From NCBI RefSeq assembly GCF_030409055.1, contig NZ_CP116619.1:3263628-3327627 (forward strand): a stretch of 64,000 nt of DNA, in the 5' to 3' direction. The stretch is from Trichocoleus desertorum NBK24 (GTDB taxonomy: Bacteria; Cyanobacteriota; Cyanobacteriia; FACHB-46). This document shows positions 31,802-36,987 of the stretch, one piece after another (position 1 is the stretch's first letter; every line of letters begins with the position of its first letter). The position numbers were made by a program, and so were the translations under genes. The notes below the pieces were generated by a model. That model had not been told where the DNA came from. It did not search any database and saw nothing but the letters and a program-made list of their open reading frames with translations.

Positions 31802-34288
31802 TTAAACACGAACACGAGCTGCTTTCACACGAACTCGGTCTTGTATTCGTAACTCCTGGTATAGCTCTATCTGTTCTGATTCATGCCAAAAAAGAACGAC
31901 CAAGCCATACCCTTGTTTGTAGTCAAAGCCTGTAGGAAATCTTTGCTGACAGCCCACAACGAAGTGAACTACTGGCTCTGTTTCACCTGTAGGCATTTTC
32001 AATTTAGTCTGTTTTTTCAGCCTTCTGACCTGTAAGGTTGACCATTGAGCATCTGTCTTTGTAGGACGCAATTCCAGTTGATATTTAGATGGAAGCGTAT
32101 CAACATCAGAGGAAGCGTTTTTTGCTCGATAAACTTCAACTTCCTCAGTGGTTAATCCGTGTAGTGCTTCAACCCACATTGTGTTTGCAAGATACTCTTT
32201 TCTACTGGCGCGAATTGGGGGATCATAAGCGAGCGCAACTGTAATACCTCTTTTTCCTTTTGCTTCAAGAAAAACTTTTGGAATTGCGACTCGATAAATA
32301 TGAAGCTTATCCAATTCAACTTCATCCATTGCTATCAAACGAACCCGATTCTTCTTAGATGCTGTTAAATCAGCAGCAGAGCACATTCCATAGCCAGTGA
32401 GACGAAGTGCTTCTTCCTCATTACCTAACCAATCTGGAGGGCATGGAGGTAAGTAAGTTGCACTACCTACTAAAGCGCGAATTAGATTGGCAGACGGTCT
32501 TTGTCCAAGGGTTGTTTCTAGGCTAGATGCAGCAATGGCAGCAGCATGAGCAACATGAGGGCAAGCGAAAGAAGTACCATCTCTAGCAGTAAGGAACCGA
32601 CCCCCAGTATCTTTTTGGATGGTTGGTTCTCCTAAAAAGATGAAAGGTTTCCACTTGGGGCTTCCGCCTGCAATAGTTTGAATTGCCCAGTTTCCTCCAT
32701 ACGCAACAATATCAGGCTTAACTGCTGTGTTATTACCACCATAAGAAAGACCCCATCCTACCCTTGTAAAGGGTGCAGGAGCATGAGCTGGAGCACCTGG
32801 AACAGCATCTTTCAATCGAACACCTGAAGGTTTTGCATGATCTCCAAGTGCATCGGATCTAGCCAAAGCACCAACCGTGAGAGCAAGGGCTGCTGTACCA
32901 GGATTGCAAATCCTGAGACTCTCATCCGTCAATAAGCTGTCTCGCACAGCCTTTTGAAAATCTTCCCTTGTTGCAACATTATTTGGTATCGGGGGTTCGC
33001 AGTTCCCAGCGATCTGAACAATTACAACATCAAGTTCTCTAGCTAACTCATCAATTTTTTCTGCCCAAGGAAATTGTCGCCCGCCTCGGTAAGTTTCTCC
33101 CTGACTTTCGATTGATAGATTAAACACTTGGCATCGTCGTTCTTGAGCATAGTAACGAATAGCTTGCTCGATTAACCATTCGGCACGATGCTGTTTTGGA
33201 ATAACAGGCCCCCAGGTAGGATCATGGCAAAGTACTTTGGCACTACAGATCCTAACTTTAGGTTGCCACTGATTGCTTTCTAAACAATTTGCAATATCAC
33301 CATAAACAACCAAACCAGCAACAGAAGTTCCATGTCCGTTTAAATCAGTTGGAGTGTTTTCTCCTGTATTAAAGTCTCGTTCCTCAACGACCCAATTTGC
33401 TAGAAACGGATGTCCTGAGACGACACCGCTGTCAATAACACATACAAGAGGGTCATCATCCAAAGGGATTGGTAGCGGATCAGGCGGTTGCACATCTCCA
33501 AACATCTCAGAATAAGCACGTGACAATTTGGGGGGAAGATCAACACGTGCAACCCAATCCAATTCCAACAAAGCCTCTGCTAACGGTCGAGAGCCGTAGA
33601 CTTTGATTAACAACAAACTAGAGGTGCGTACCTCTTCGGTTAGTTGCCCGTCATAAGTGGCACACATTGAGCGAACATCGCCCAGTACCTTACGAACAGA
33701 ATCTTTATCTCCAGGATGCCAAAGATCTACATCAAGATAAAAAGACGTTGCGTCAGAAAAGCCTTCCTCTCGTAGACGTACTCCGATCCTTTCCTCTCGC
33801 GAGACCGAGCGTACTGACTCTAAAGCAGAAAAGAAGTTCTGTCTCATCACAGGAGCCAAAACTGTATTTTCGGCTGATGCTACATCATAGAGACAATTCT
33901 CATCTAGTAAGAGCTGACGCGAAGTTTCAGTTGGAAATTGAACAAGCAATCGGTAATGGTCTTGATCCGCTATTTTGTCCTTAAATTCACTAACGATCCA
34001 GGCACCAAAACGCTCGAAAGCTTCTCGAAGGTTAATATTGGTGCTGTTGAATTCTAAAACAAAAAGCTGTTCAGGATCTATTCCATAACCTTTTCGAGCT
34101 TGTGATACTTGTTGTGTTGCTTGAGCAATATTTTGTAAAATCTCTTGGGCATGTTGATGGTGATCCTCCCGGATAGGCGGTTTAGCTCCATAGCCTAGTC
34201 GAGTTTTCCTCGCATCAAATTGCTTTTTTGGCTCACGAGTAAAAGTGATGTGTATATATTGACCAGGTTCAGACGGAGATGGAGGCAT
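31802..34288 (-). CDS. ietS: Subtilisin-like S8 serine protease, IetS-like partner
   Basis: An 828-residue cytoplasmic (no signal peptide) subtilase. The catalytic triad is Asp286 (VCVIDSGVV), His319 (DLNGHGTSVAG) and Ser573 (DGTSFACPHVA), with oxyanion Asn429 in QIAGN. The protease domain (about 275-620) is flanked by an unusual 270-residue N-terminal region and a 200-residue C-terminal region. It begins five bases after the stop of the AAA-ATPase gene, so they are translationally coupled. The ATPase plus subtilase pair matches IetA/IetS, described as an anti-phage and toxin-antitoxin type system. Assignment is from gene order, size and domain content. Confidence 0.78.
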   Translation of the reverse strand: MPPSPSEPGQYIHITFTREPKKQFDARKTRLGYGAKPPIREDHHQHAQEILQNIAQATQQVSQARKGYGIDPEQLFVLEFNSTNINLREAFERFGAWIVSEFKDKIADQDHYRLLVQFPTETSRQLLLDENCLYDVASAENTVLAPVMRQNFFSALESVRSVSREERIGVRLREEGFSDATSFYLDVDLWHPGDKDSVRKVLGDVRSMCATYDGQLTEEVRTSSLLLIKVYGSRPLAEALLELDWVARVDLPPKLSRAYSEMFGDVQPPDPLPIPLDDDPLVCVIDSGVVSGHPFLANWVVEERDFNTGENTPTDLNGHGTSVAGLVVYGDIANCLESNQWQPKVRICSAKVLCHDPTWGPVIPKQHRAEWLIEQAIRYYAQERRCQVFNLSIESQGETYRGGRQFPWAEKIDELARELDVVIVQIAGNCEPPIPNNVATREDFQKAVRDSLLTDESLRICNPGTAALALTVGALARSDALGDHAKPSGVRLKDAVPGAPAHAPAPFTRVGWGLSYGGNNTAVKPDIVAYGGNWAIQTIAGGSPKWKPFIFLGEPTIQKDTGGRFLTARDGTSFACPHVAHAAAIAASSLETTLGQRPSANLIRALVGSATYLPPCPPDWLGNEEEALRLTGYGMCSAADLTASKKNRVRLIAMDEVELDKLHIYRVAIPKVFLEAKGKRGITVALAYDPPIRASRKEYLANTMWVEALHGLTTEEVEVYRAKNASSDVDTLPSKYQLELRPTKTDAQWSTLQVRRLKKQTKLKMPTGETEPVVHFVVGCQQRFPTGFDYKQGYGLVVLFWHESEQIELYQELRIQDRVRVKAARVRV

Positions 34289-34293
34289 ATTGA

Positions 34294-35328
34294 CTAATCT
34301 TGATCAATCGTTGGCATGGGGTTGCCAGAAGCTTTTTCCAAGATAGCCTGACGATAAGCATGTCGTGAAAGGGCTTCCGCAATGTCTTCTTCTTTTGCTT
34401 GCCGAGTACCCTGTATGACACATGACTTACGAATATCGAGGCATACTCGTTCTGCATCTGCATAGGTAGATCCAGATAACTCTTTAACCATCTCAGCAAC
34501 TTGGGAAGCACTGAATCTCAAGGGAACTAGCCGCTTACTAACGAGCTTTTGGAGATGCTCATCTGTCGGCTTCTCGAAACGGATGACATCATCAAATCTT
34601 CTCCAAGCTGCTGGATCAAGTGCTTGTTCAAAGTTTGTTGCTGCAATAACTAGCGATCTGCCACTAAAGTTATCAACTATTTGTAAATATGAATTAACAA
34701 CTCGTTTGATCTCACTATGCTCTGTAGGATCATCCCGAGACCGACCAATTGCATCAAACTCATCAAAGAACATCACCCACTGTCCACGTTGAGCATAATC
34801 AAAAACTCTTCGAAGATTTGCAGCAGTTTCACCCAGCAATGAAGAAACGACCGCATCAAAACGAACATACAGTAGAGGTAGTCCTAGTTCTGCTGCTATA
34901 GCCTCCGCTGCTGCTGTCTTACCACACCCAGATGGACCACAAAACAAAACACGGCGTGTCGGCAACAACCCATTAGCCTCTAAAACCTCCCATTCTCGAA
35001 ATTCACGCATTAGTCTTTCAAGTGCGTTCCGAATTTCTTGGCTTAAGATCAAGTCTTCTAGAAAACGATTAGTCCACTTGGTTTCAAGCAGGGCAGCTCC
35101 CTTTTCAATATCTTTTGGAATGCTTCCAAGCTGTGTGAGGCTTTGTATTGGTTTGTGTTCTAAATGGCCATTCCCGTTTTTTAACATTTGCTCTAGCTCG
35201 TTAGCTAAAACAATGTGATGCTTTTTACGTTCTTCTGCAATAATTGCCTCAGCAGCTTCATGAAAAGCTCCATCATCGCGCTTCTGGTAGCTTCGTATAA
35301 GCTTCTTTAAAAGGTCTGCCCTTGCCAT
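34294..35328 (-). CDS. ietA: AAA-family ATPase, IetA-like
   Basis: A 344-residue single-domain AAA+ ATPase. Walker A GPSGCGKT is at 131-138, Walker B VMFFDEFDA at about 185-193, sensor-1 Asn in AATN at about 232, and arginine-finger region WRRFDD at 242-247. An N-terminal helical part of about 90 residues precedes the ATPase core. It is the first gene of a two-gene unit with the subtilase downstream. In the IetAS family the ATPase is believed to restrain or direct the protease partner until phage infection. Upstream, 35329-35600 is AT-rich and carries its promoter. Confidence 0.8.
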   Translation of the reverse strand: MARADLLKKLIRSYQKRDDGAFHEAAEAIIAEERKKHHIVLANELEQMLKNGNGHLEHKPIQSLTQLGSIPKDIEKGAALLETKWTNRFLEDLILSQEIRNALERLMREFREWEVLEANGLLPTRRVLFCGPSGCGKTAAAEAIAAELGLPLLYVRFDAVVSSLLGETAANLRRVFDYAQRGQWVMFFDEFDAIGRSRDDPTEHSEIKRVVNSYLQIVDNFSGRSLVIAATNFEQALDPAAWRRFDDVIRFEKPTDEHLQKLVSKRLVPLRFSASQVAEMVKELSGSTYADAERVCLDIRKSCVIQGTRQAKEEDIAEALSRHAYRQAILEKASGNPMPTIDQD

Positions 35329-35680
35329 TACTTTCTTTCCTACCCAGAAGGCGCAGTCAGCATACTACCTAAGCTTTGATGACCTAACTAACGTAACACT
35401 TTCTGTACCATTTGATTTTTATTGACAGGCAATCAATTCTTCGTTTAGCGTAGCCTCTATATTTTCCAAAATCAGTACATATATACTGGTAATTTTAACT
35501 CGTTTCGATGTTCATGTTGGCTCCTTGAGTAATCAGCAAAACTTTATACTTGAGGAAAATTCCCACGTAACTAATATGGCATTACGAGAGGCTTATCATA
35601 ATGGGGGGTTGACGATGCTGTTTTTTTTCTGTTAGCGTCAGTGCATCAAGACTTAAAAACTCGCAAAAGATTTTTCGAAG

Positions 35681-35740
35681 ATGCTATCGCTTCGCAGCAG
35701 CTACTTTTATTTTTGGTTTATGGAGGTTCACTTGGAGTGA
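35681..35740 (+). CDS. Candidate leader peptide 1, aromatic-rich (19 aa)
   Basis: An ATG frame of 19 codons containing six consecutive aromatic codons, Tyr-Phe-Tyr-Phe-Trp-Phe (35702-35719), ending in TGA at 35738-35740. A terminator hairpin follows 28 bases later. The downstream gene aroF makes the first intermediate of Phe, Tyr and Trp synthesis, so a leader peptide whose translation senses these aminoacyl-tRNAs is logical. The ribosome binding site is weak (only GAAG abutting the ATG), which lowers confidence. Confidence 0.5.
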   Translation: MLSLRSSYFYFWFMEVHLE

Positions 35741-35767
35741 ATCCAGCTTTTGCTGAATCTCCAGGTG

Positions 35768-35806
35768 GACCGCAGAAAACAGGCTCTGCGGTCTTTTGCT
35801 TTTTTA
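35768..35806 (+). terminator. Intrinsic terminator 1 in aroF leader
   Basis: The 9-bp perfect stem GACCGCAGA / TCTGCGGTC with an eight-base loop is followed by TTTTGCTTTTTT. It lies 28 bases after leader peptide 1 and 303 bases before the aroF ATG, so transcription starting upstream must pass it. Additional alternative pairing (GGTTCACT with AGTGAATCC, GCTG with CAGC) is possible just before it. Confidence 0.8.
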
Positions 35807-35850
35807 AGGCCAGATTTCACTTACACAGAACTCAGGCAGGACACAGACTC

Positions 35851-36015
35851 GTGACGACTCCCCGCACCAAAGCAATTTCTCAAGTGGCCGCAGCTAGTCT
35901 GTGTGCCATCAGCTTTGGTGATTCCCTCAAGACGCAGTGTATTTCCTACCTGCGTCTTTCTTTTTGGGGAAGCTGGTTTTATAGCTTTTACTTTTGGAGC
36001 AGGAGTTCCGGGTAA
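35851..36015 (+). CDS. Candidate leader peptide 2, aromatic-rich (about 54 aa)
   Basis: A frame ending in TAA at 36013-36015 whose last part reads FWGSWFYSFYFW, nine aromatic residues of twelve (codons at 35962-35997: three Trp, four Phe, two Tyr). The nearest start is GTG at 35851, with AGGA at 35838-35841 nine bases upstream; a second in-frame GTG is at 35884. The TAA stop lies inside the 5' arm of the antiterminator stem (36003-36013), the geometry expected if ribosome position decides between stems. Translation is not demonstrated. Confidence 0.5.
   Translation: MTTPRTKAISQVAAASLCAISFGDSLKTQCISYLRLSFWGSWFYSFYFWSRSSG
35929..35965 (+). terminator. Hairpin 2 in aroF leader, terminator-like
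   Basis: The stem AAGACGCAG / CTGCGTCTT is perfect (9 bp) with a 12-base loop and is followed by TCTTTTT. It lies at the beginning of the aromatic codon run of leader peptide 2, so a ribosome translating those codons would mask it. It may be a second terminator or the first stem of an attenuator. Confidence 0.65.
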
Positions 36016-36071
36016 AGTCGCCATGCTGCTCACTGCACGACCCGGGACTCTCACAAGGTTCCGGGTTTTTT
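36003..36071 (+). promoter_or_regulatory. Antiterminator/terminator switch before aroF
   Basis: Strand A GAGTTCCGGGT (36003-36013) pairs with strand B ACCCGGGACTC (36040-36050) with a single G-T pair. Strand B can instead pair with strand C GTTCCGGGT (36058-36066) forming a 9-bp stem directly before TTTTTT. The two structures are mutually exclusive, the hallmark of transcription attenuation. Strand A overlaps the stop codon of leader peptide 2, so completed translation would favour the terminator and stalling on aromatic codons would favour readthrough. This logic is inferred. Confidence 0.65.
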
Positions 36072-36108: not shown

Positions 36109-36987
36109 ATGTTAAACGCCAAACTCGCTAGCAAAGCCCACGCCAACCACAAAAGCGTGATTCAACTGTCTGATCACGTGACCGTTGGGGGTAAAGATCT
36201 GCTGATTGTCGGTGGCCCTTGCACTGTAGAAAACTTAGCCCAAATGGAAGCTGTGGCTAGCCGCTTACTCACAGCCCCGATCCAAGCTCTGCGAGGTGGG
36301 GTTTACAAGCCTCGTACCTCTCCTTACGCTTTTCAAGGCATGGGTTTGGAAGGCTTGGAGATTTTAGCTACGGTGCGGCAGCGCTACCACTTGCCCGTGG
36401 TGACGGAAGTGATGGCGATTTCTCAGATTGAAGAAATTGCGGCGCATGCAGATATGTTGCAGATTGGTAGCCGCAACATGCAGAACTATGACTTGCTCAA
36501 AGCCCTAGGTCAGGCAGGAAAACCGATTTTGCTGAAGCGGGGTCTCTCCGCCACGATTGAGGAATTTGTTTTGGCAGCGGAATACATCTTGGCTCACGGC
36601 AATCCGGATGTGGTGTTGTGTGAGCGGGGAATTCGCAGCTTCGATACTTACACTCGCAACGTCCTCGACTTGGGTGCGGTTGCTGCCCTCAGGCAAATTA
36701 CCCATTTGCCGATTATTGTTGATCCGAGCCATGCTGCTGGGAAGCGCGAACTAGTGGCAGATTTAGCGAGAGCCGCGATCGCCTGTGGTGCTGATGGTCT
36801 GATCATTGAGTGTCATCCAGAACCAGAGCAATCTGTCTCAGATGCTCGCCAAGCTCTCTCTTTAGAAGAGATGGCGGAACTAGTCGCTAGCTTGAAGCCG
36901 ATCGCGACTGCGGTGGGGCGAGGCATTGCAGAAATGAATACCCGTCCTCTAGTTCCAGTTTTGGCGGGAATGGTGGGCGTCAAGTAA
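36109..36987 (+). CDS. aroF: 3-deoxy-7-phosphoheptulonate (DAHP) synthase, type I beta
   Basis: A 292-residue enzyme condensing phosphoenolpyruvate and erythrose-4-phosphate into DAHP, the entry to the shikimate pathway. Motifs: LLIVGGPCTVEN (phosphoenolpyruvate site), ALRGGVYKPRTSPYAFQG, LLKRGLSATIEEF, CERGIRSF and IVDPSHAAGKRE (metal-binding His). Size and motifs match the short AroF-like I-beta class without an N-terminal ACT domain, so the enzyme itself may not be feedback inhibited. Start is ATG 36109 with GGAG seven bases upstream; a longer frame from 36070 includes the terminator and is rejected. Preceded by the attenuator-like leader. Confidence 0.95.
   Translation: MLNAKLASKAHANHKSVIQLSDHVTVGGKDLLIVGGPCTVENLAQMEAVASRLLTAPIQALRGGVYKPRTSPYAFQGMGLEGLEILATVRQRYHLPVVTEVMAISQIEEIAAHADMLQIGSRNMQNYDLLKALGQAGKPILLKRGLSATIEEFVLAAEYILAHGNPDVVLCERGIRSFDTYTRNVLDLGAVAALRQITHLPIIVDPSHAAGKRELVADLARAAIACGADGLIIECHPEPEQSVSDARQALSLEEMAELVASLKPIATAVGRGIAEMNTRPLVPVLAGMVGVK

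Follow-up and report, generated by a model that had tools for sequence, protein, structure and literature searches.

Tandem aromatic-codon leader ORFs with alternative RNA helices precede a cyanobacterial aroF gene and very probably form two serial transcription attenuators

The window, i.e., the whole stretch of 64,000 nucleotides that was analysed, lies in a single-contig cyanobacterial genome of 5.46 Mb and contains an aroF gene for DAHP synthase (3-deoxy-7-phosphoheptulonate synthase). The match of its product to the PRK08673/TIGR01361 type (E 1.5e-118) exceeds the curated cut-off, in agreement with the enzyme named for this gene in a first-pass annotation of the window. Read 5' to 3', the region holds a promoter, a first leader ORF, an antiterminator/terminator pair, a second leader ORF, a second antiterminator/terminator pair, and aroF (Table 1). 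The gene upstream of the leader region is divergently oriented. Any plus-strand terminator between 35640 and 36109 can therefore only serve the aroF leader or an RNA started there. That neighbour encodes an IetA-like AAA ATPase and adjoins a gene for an IetS-like subtilase, and the pair (31802-35328) makes up the two components of an IetAS anti-phage system; the NCBIfam cut-off for IteA was not reached at this locus.

Table 1. Features of the aroF leader region and its surroundings (positions in the window)
Feature	Position	Strand	Evidence and remarks
IetS-like subtilase gene	31802-34288	-	PADLOC, E 1.6e-97
IetA-like AAA ATPase gene	34294-35328	-	PADLOC, E 2.4e-89
Sigma-70-like promoter, TTGACG (35609-35614) and TAGCGT (35633-35638), N18 spacer	35609-35638	+	consensus match; pattern kept in homologous loci
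Leader ORF 1, MLSLRSSYFYFWFMEVHLE then stop; ATG 35681, UGA 35738-35740	35681-35740	+	aromatic core YFYFWF at 35702-35719
Antiterminator 1, 5' arm, within leader 1 codons	35725-35737	+	covariation, 7 pairs with double-sided changes
Antiterminator 1, 3' arm, overlapping the terminator 1 5' arm	35759-35771	+	covariation
Intrinsic terminator 1, GGACCGCAGA...TCTGCGGTC with T-rich tail; stem 35767-35793	35767-35805	+	covariation, 5 pairs with double-sided changes; -19.3 kcal/mol
Leader ORF 2, VTTPRTKAISQVAAASLCAISFGDSLKTQCISYLRLSFWGSWFYSFYFWSRSSG then stop, ending in SWFYSFYFWSRSSG then stop; probable start GTG 35851, from sister species	35851-36015	+	54 codons
Terminator-like hairpin AAGACGCAG/CTGCGTCTT (35929-35958) with TTTCTTTTT, inside leader 2	35929-35965	+	present in three same-genus species
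Leader 2 aromatic core, WGSWFYSFYFW	35965-35997	+	sequence; comparison with homologous leader 2
Antiterminator 2, 5' arm, extending to the first base of the leader 2 stop codon; covariation-supported part 36004-36013	36003-36013	+	covariation
Antiterminator 2, 3' arm, which is the terminator 2 5' arm; covariation-supported part 36040-36049	36040-36050	+	covariation
Intrinsic terminator 2, ACCCGGGACT...GGTTCCGGGT with T6 (36066-36071)	36040-36071	+	covariation, 8 pairs with double-sided changes; -17.2 kcal/mol
aroF, DAHP synthase	36109-36987	+	PRK08673/TIGR01361 type, above curated cut-off

The first-pass annotation had described the two aromatic cores, antiterminator 2, terminator 2, and its T6, and all of these coordinates were correct. 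The promoter, the probable GTG start of leader 2, and the hairpin inside leader 2 were absent from that description, as was the antiterminator of unit 1, which has 13 bp, is longer than antiterminator 2, and is mutually exclusive with the terminator 1 stem. For comparison, 80 aroF loci from named genomes and 30 from relatives were gathered, and codons, frames, and helices were counted in 46 redundancy-thinned sequences aligned with MAFFT (alignments A1 and A2). Both ORFs were found, in the same order, in almost every aroF locus of the clade with enough upstream sequence.

Among relatives, leader 1 has the consensus M...SYFYFWFxxVHRE followed by the stop. Its frame relative to the antiterminator is identical in 46/46 sequences, and its six core codons are aromatic in 260 of 276 cells (94%), with Phe, Tyr, and Trp interchanging. 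The N-terminal residues are free to vary, and in the tail the codon preceding Val ends in G nearly always, tracking the pairing strands. The UGA stop is invariant (46/46), including in two loci with an earlier TAG (L005 and L092), and antiterminator 1 is predicted to be more stable than terminator 1 in all 46 sequences. A hairpin around this stop, GGUUCAC/GUGAAUC, a candidate protector or pause (1:2) hairpin, is paired in 93.8% of cells, with covariation not beyond that of shuffles. The GUGA at the stop (35737-35743; A1 columns 24-30) is nearly invariant, even in L005 and L092, and is able to pair, without covariation, with the GGUUCAC of the antiterminator 5' arm.

Leader 2 has the consensus M...SWFYGFYFWPRxSSG followed by the stop, and outside the host genus it spans about 20 codons from an ATG start. 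In the host genus the start is probably the GTG at 35851, judging from two sister species that carry ATG (L086) and GTG-ATG, respectively; their leader peptides match those of the window apart from minor substitutions such as WF to WY. Changes in the genus-specific N-terminal extension of leader 2 are spread 4/3/4 over the three codon positions, which gives no signature of purifying selection. All three stop codons are used across loci, and in the window the TAA (36013-36015), which the first-pass annotation had placed inside the antiterminator arm, shares its first base with that arm. Terminator 2 pairs 36040-36048 with 36058-36066, and the start codon of aroF follows this terminator at a distance of more than 30 nt, outside the helices. 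Shine-Dalgarno sites are weak in the window, a weak point that had been recognized from the outset. A GUCAUGC-like motif is conserved between the arms of antiterminator 2 (36016-36039; the A2 loop). Additionally, the hairpin with a T-rich tail inside leader 2 is confined to the extended leader of the host genus, where it could act as one more checkpoint, the third, if leader 2 is being translated or not.

In principle, chance combined with the T-rich tails of terminators might yield Phe-like codons and functionless hairpins, a bias that the first-pass annotation had itself raised. TTT is indeed by far the commonest leader codon, and leader 2 of the window adjoins a T-rich tail. The TTT:TTC counts are 128:3 in leader 1 and 158:30 in leader 2, versus 83:148 in the aroF coding sequences of the same loci, as if the slower wobble codon had been selected in the leaders. 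However, leader 1 lies upstream of any terminator or T-tail, the core codons swap among TTT, TAY, and TGG in a way that preserves aromaticity, and the frame is constant. When the window region was dinucleotide-shuffled 2000 times, two aromatic-dense ORFs arose in only 0.4% of cases, and at least two were present in 75 of 92 homologous upstream regions versus 0.6% of shuffles. With class-wide conservation, shuffles, codon interchange, and the covariation described below all standing against it, an origin by chance and T-tails was ruled out as extremely improbable.

All four helices are well paired across the alignments: 90.3% of cells for antiterminator 1 (46 cells with double-sided change), 96.4% for terminator 1 (16), 90.7% for antiterminator 2 (28), and 94.3% for terminator 2 (34). 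For each helix, 0/500 shuffles attained the covariation score, and slid versions scored far lower. The slide control is lenient given that the structures were proposed from the same sequences, and relatedness by itself can lift sequences above shuffles. In these alignments, the double-sided changes across several pairs and pair types are the stronger argument. The hairpins associated with each frame in the first-pass annotation both covary, and aromatic codons, reading frame, and pairing strands are retained together in relatives. In the diverged genome G056, whose aroF is 67% identical, reading by eye showed unrelated unit 1 stem sequences with the order of ORF, antiterminator, and terminator kept twice.

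The terminators could also be real and obey some other signal, e.g., a ligand-binding RNA, a tRNA, or a protein, with the ORFs passive or encoding a small trans-acting peptide. The conserved GGUUCAC/GUGAAUC hairpin at the leader 1 stop and the conserved GUCAUGC-like motif in the antiterminator 2 loop would suit such a signal. In contrast, conservation in the leader tails tracks the pairing strands and not a peptide, N-terminal residues differ freely among loci, and searches of Rfam gave no riboswitch or T-box match at the gathering score or at E up to 1. We consider control by another signal very unlikely. T-box or riboswitch identity was rejected on the basis of these same covariance model searches, and the amino-acid leaders of Rfam (Trp_leader, Phe_leader, and others) likewise gave no match at the gathering score or at E up to 1.

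For an attenuator, transcription would have to begin upstream of the leader. In 45/46 loci, but in 2.1% of shuffles, the pattern TTGACN-N15-19-TANNNT is found no more than 200 nt 5' of the leader 1 core; between leader 1 and aroF it occurs in 0/46 loci. As the pattern lies exclusively 5' of leader 1, aroF transcripts are predicted to cross both terminators, and the aroF transcript start downstream of 36071 that the first-pass annotation had named as fatal to its proposal is not predicted. By consensus match, then, a promoter stands upstream of the leader and none between leader and gene.

To follow the element beyond these alignments, covariance models of unit 1 (R1) and unit 2 (R2) were used. 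R1 was detected in 89/91 aroF loci and R2 in 88/91. Counted by hand, 142 of the 390 sampled genomes in the class have a strong R1 match (E 3e-9 or better), at one site each; a gap follows, with the next score at about 1e-4, and a tally of 167 includes weak matches. When 20 further R1 sites were fetched, 18 had a full aroF behind them and 17 of those 18 had both leaders, L133 having leader 1 only. R2 matched 17 of these 20 sites, a set outside its training barring species overlap with the named records. Run alone on 116 relatives, R2 matched one place per genome, and all such genomes except G056 also had R1. Presence of R1 coincides with presence of a complete aroF ortholog (at least 65% identity to the gene of the window) in 13/13 genomes. 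Natural single-unit variants exist, with leader 1 only in L133 and L097 and leader 2 only in L063 and L050.

The tandem order recurs before aroF orthologs in cyanobacteria, filamentous ones and others, as well as in four MAGs that are labelled Melainabacteria and carry both leaders. In the aroF tree, the photosynthetic sequences form a group with 95/96 support that excludes these four MAG sequences. As a phylum-wide search matched nothing beyond the class, four MAG contigs are the basis for the Melainabacteria cases. Deep inheritance of the tandem leader is plausible, and the Melainabacteria leaders may instead reflect transfer or mis-binning.

Attenuation does not appear to be a general feature of aromatic genes here. 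No conserved leader was found before pheA/PDT (30 genomes) or trpE (29 loci), no aromatic-dense ORF precedes either of the other two DAHP synthase genes of the host, and no comparable leader was found before DAHP synthase paralogs in other genomes. Other aromatic runs in the host genome showed no further obvious leader on brief inspection.

Leader-peptide attenuators are recognized by a short ORF rich in codons for the products of the pathway, an intrinsic terminator between this ORF and the gene, and an antiterminator that shares the 5' arm of the terminator and overlaps the end of the ORF. Each of these is found here, the first in the conserved aromatic cores and the second by sequence together with covariation. 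What sequence and comparison establish are the ORFs, their frame, the conservation of aromatic codons, the four alternative helices, and the position of the promoter pattern. From these we infer that the region very probably comprises two ribosome-mediated transcription attenuators in series that sense Phe, Tyr, and Trp; translation, stalling, termination in vivo, and the amino-acid response are the inferred parts. The ribosome-mediated attenuation first proposed for this region passed every comparative test run on the sequences.

The steps of the proposed mechanism are drawn from established attenuation mechanisms. Transcription would start about 40 nt 5' of leader 1. With charged Phe-, Tyr-, and Trp-tRNAs available, a ribosome would reach the leader 1 UGA, where its usual footprint would cover the antiterminator 5' arm (35725-35737), allowing terminator 1 to form and RNA polymerase to stop. 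If any of the three were scarce, the ribosome would stall in YFYFWF and leave most or all of this arm free, antiterminator 1 would form, and transcription would continue. Leader 2 (WFYSFYFW) would repeat the test with the same geometry via antiterminator 2 and terminator 2. Ribosomes stalled for lack of aromatic amino acids would thus very probably let aroF be transcribed. A point against this geometry is that a ribosome stalled at the final Trp codon of leader 2 would hide part of the antiterminator arm. Since a transcript would have to clear both units, the logic would be OR over amino acids and AND over units, and with the units in series, read-through would be the product of two probabilities, a steeper response than that of one unit. 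No conserved protector (1:2) hairpin with support from covariation was found, so an untranslated leader would be predicted to read through. We put forward as a tentative proposal, with somewhat less than even chances, the fuller picture of a two-stage serial attenuator in which each stage reads three aromatics, the switch is multiplicative and steep, the untranslated default is read-through, and the whole was present in the common ancestor of photosynthetic cyanobacteria and the Melainabacteria lineage.

The main action might lie not in the intrinsic terminators but in Rho-dependent polarity or in control of aroF translation, and the tandem leader ORFs of Salmonella mgtCBR, which have no intrinsic terminators and may work through Rho (PMC3641672), offer a precedent. 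Nevertheless, both terminators here have GC-rich stems, T tails, and covariation, and the aroF start codon is well clear of the helices, making this a highly improbable account of the region.

The E. coli leaders trpL and pheL combine regulatory codons with mutually exclusive antiterminator and terminator helices, and trpL ends in UGA. The cyanobacterial leader resembles them in these respects, with the UGA of leader 1 as in trpL. In contrast, trpL and pheL are single units, each devoted to one amino acid and equipped with a protector 1:2 hairpin, whereas no such hairpin is supported here, and the predicted read-through of the untranslated leader is unlike E. coli trp. A close gene-level parallel is aroR, the aroF leader of Corynebacterium glutamicum, which was first reported in PMC4046766 and which, with a Phe-Tyr-Phe motif, acts by ribosome-mediated attenuation induced by Phe limitation (Neshat et al. 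2014, per PMC11802643). Both are aromatic leader peptides preceding a DAHP synthase gene. As published, aroR belongs to another phylum and is one unit, whose described motif holds three aromatic codons and lacks Trp, unlike the two units here, each with Phe, Tyr, and Trp codons. Similarly, the Acholeplasma aroF uORFC-13-1 motif is a candidate comprising a predicted uORF with Phe codon(s) and a terminator (24 unique sequences; PMC8632094), described as one unit with no tandem arrangement. Two leader ORFs placed serially in one leader RNA are shared with mgtM/mgtP of Salmonella mgtCBR, which its authors call a "singular example" (PMC3641672). There, two different signals (ATP and proline) act additively without intrinsic terminators, whereas the cyanobacterial units would read the same signal through intrinsic terminators.

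According to a 2016 survey (PMC4833913), reliable data on cyanobacterial attenuation do not exist. In searches of open papers, we found no description of a cyanobacterial tandem aroF element, and Rfam has no family for such a leader RNA. The first-pass suggestion of an undescribed attenuator thus holds, as far as the open literature shows, for the cyanobacterial occurrence and the tandem form; it does not hold for the principle, since single-unit aroF attenuators are known elsewhere. The element is widespread (142/390 sampled genomes of the class), lies at the point of entry into the shikimate pathway, and is relevant to the metabolic engineering of aromatic products. It offers a ready test of how two same-signal attenuators in series shape a response, with the natural single-unit variants as built-in comparisons. 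Attenuation at aroF would also imply working transcription-translation coupling at this cyanobacterial locus.
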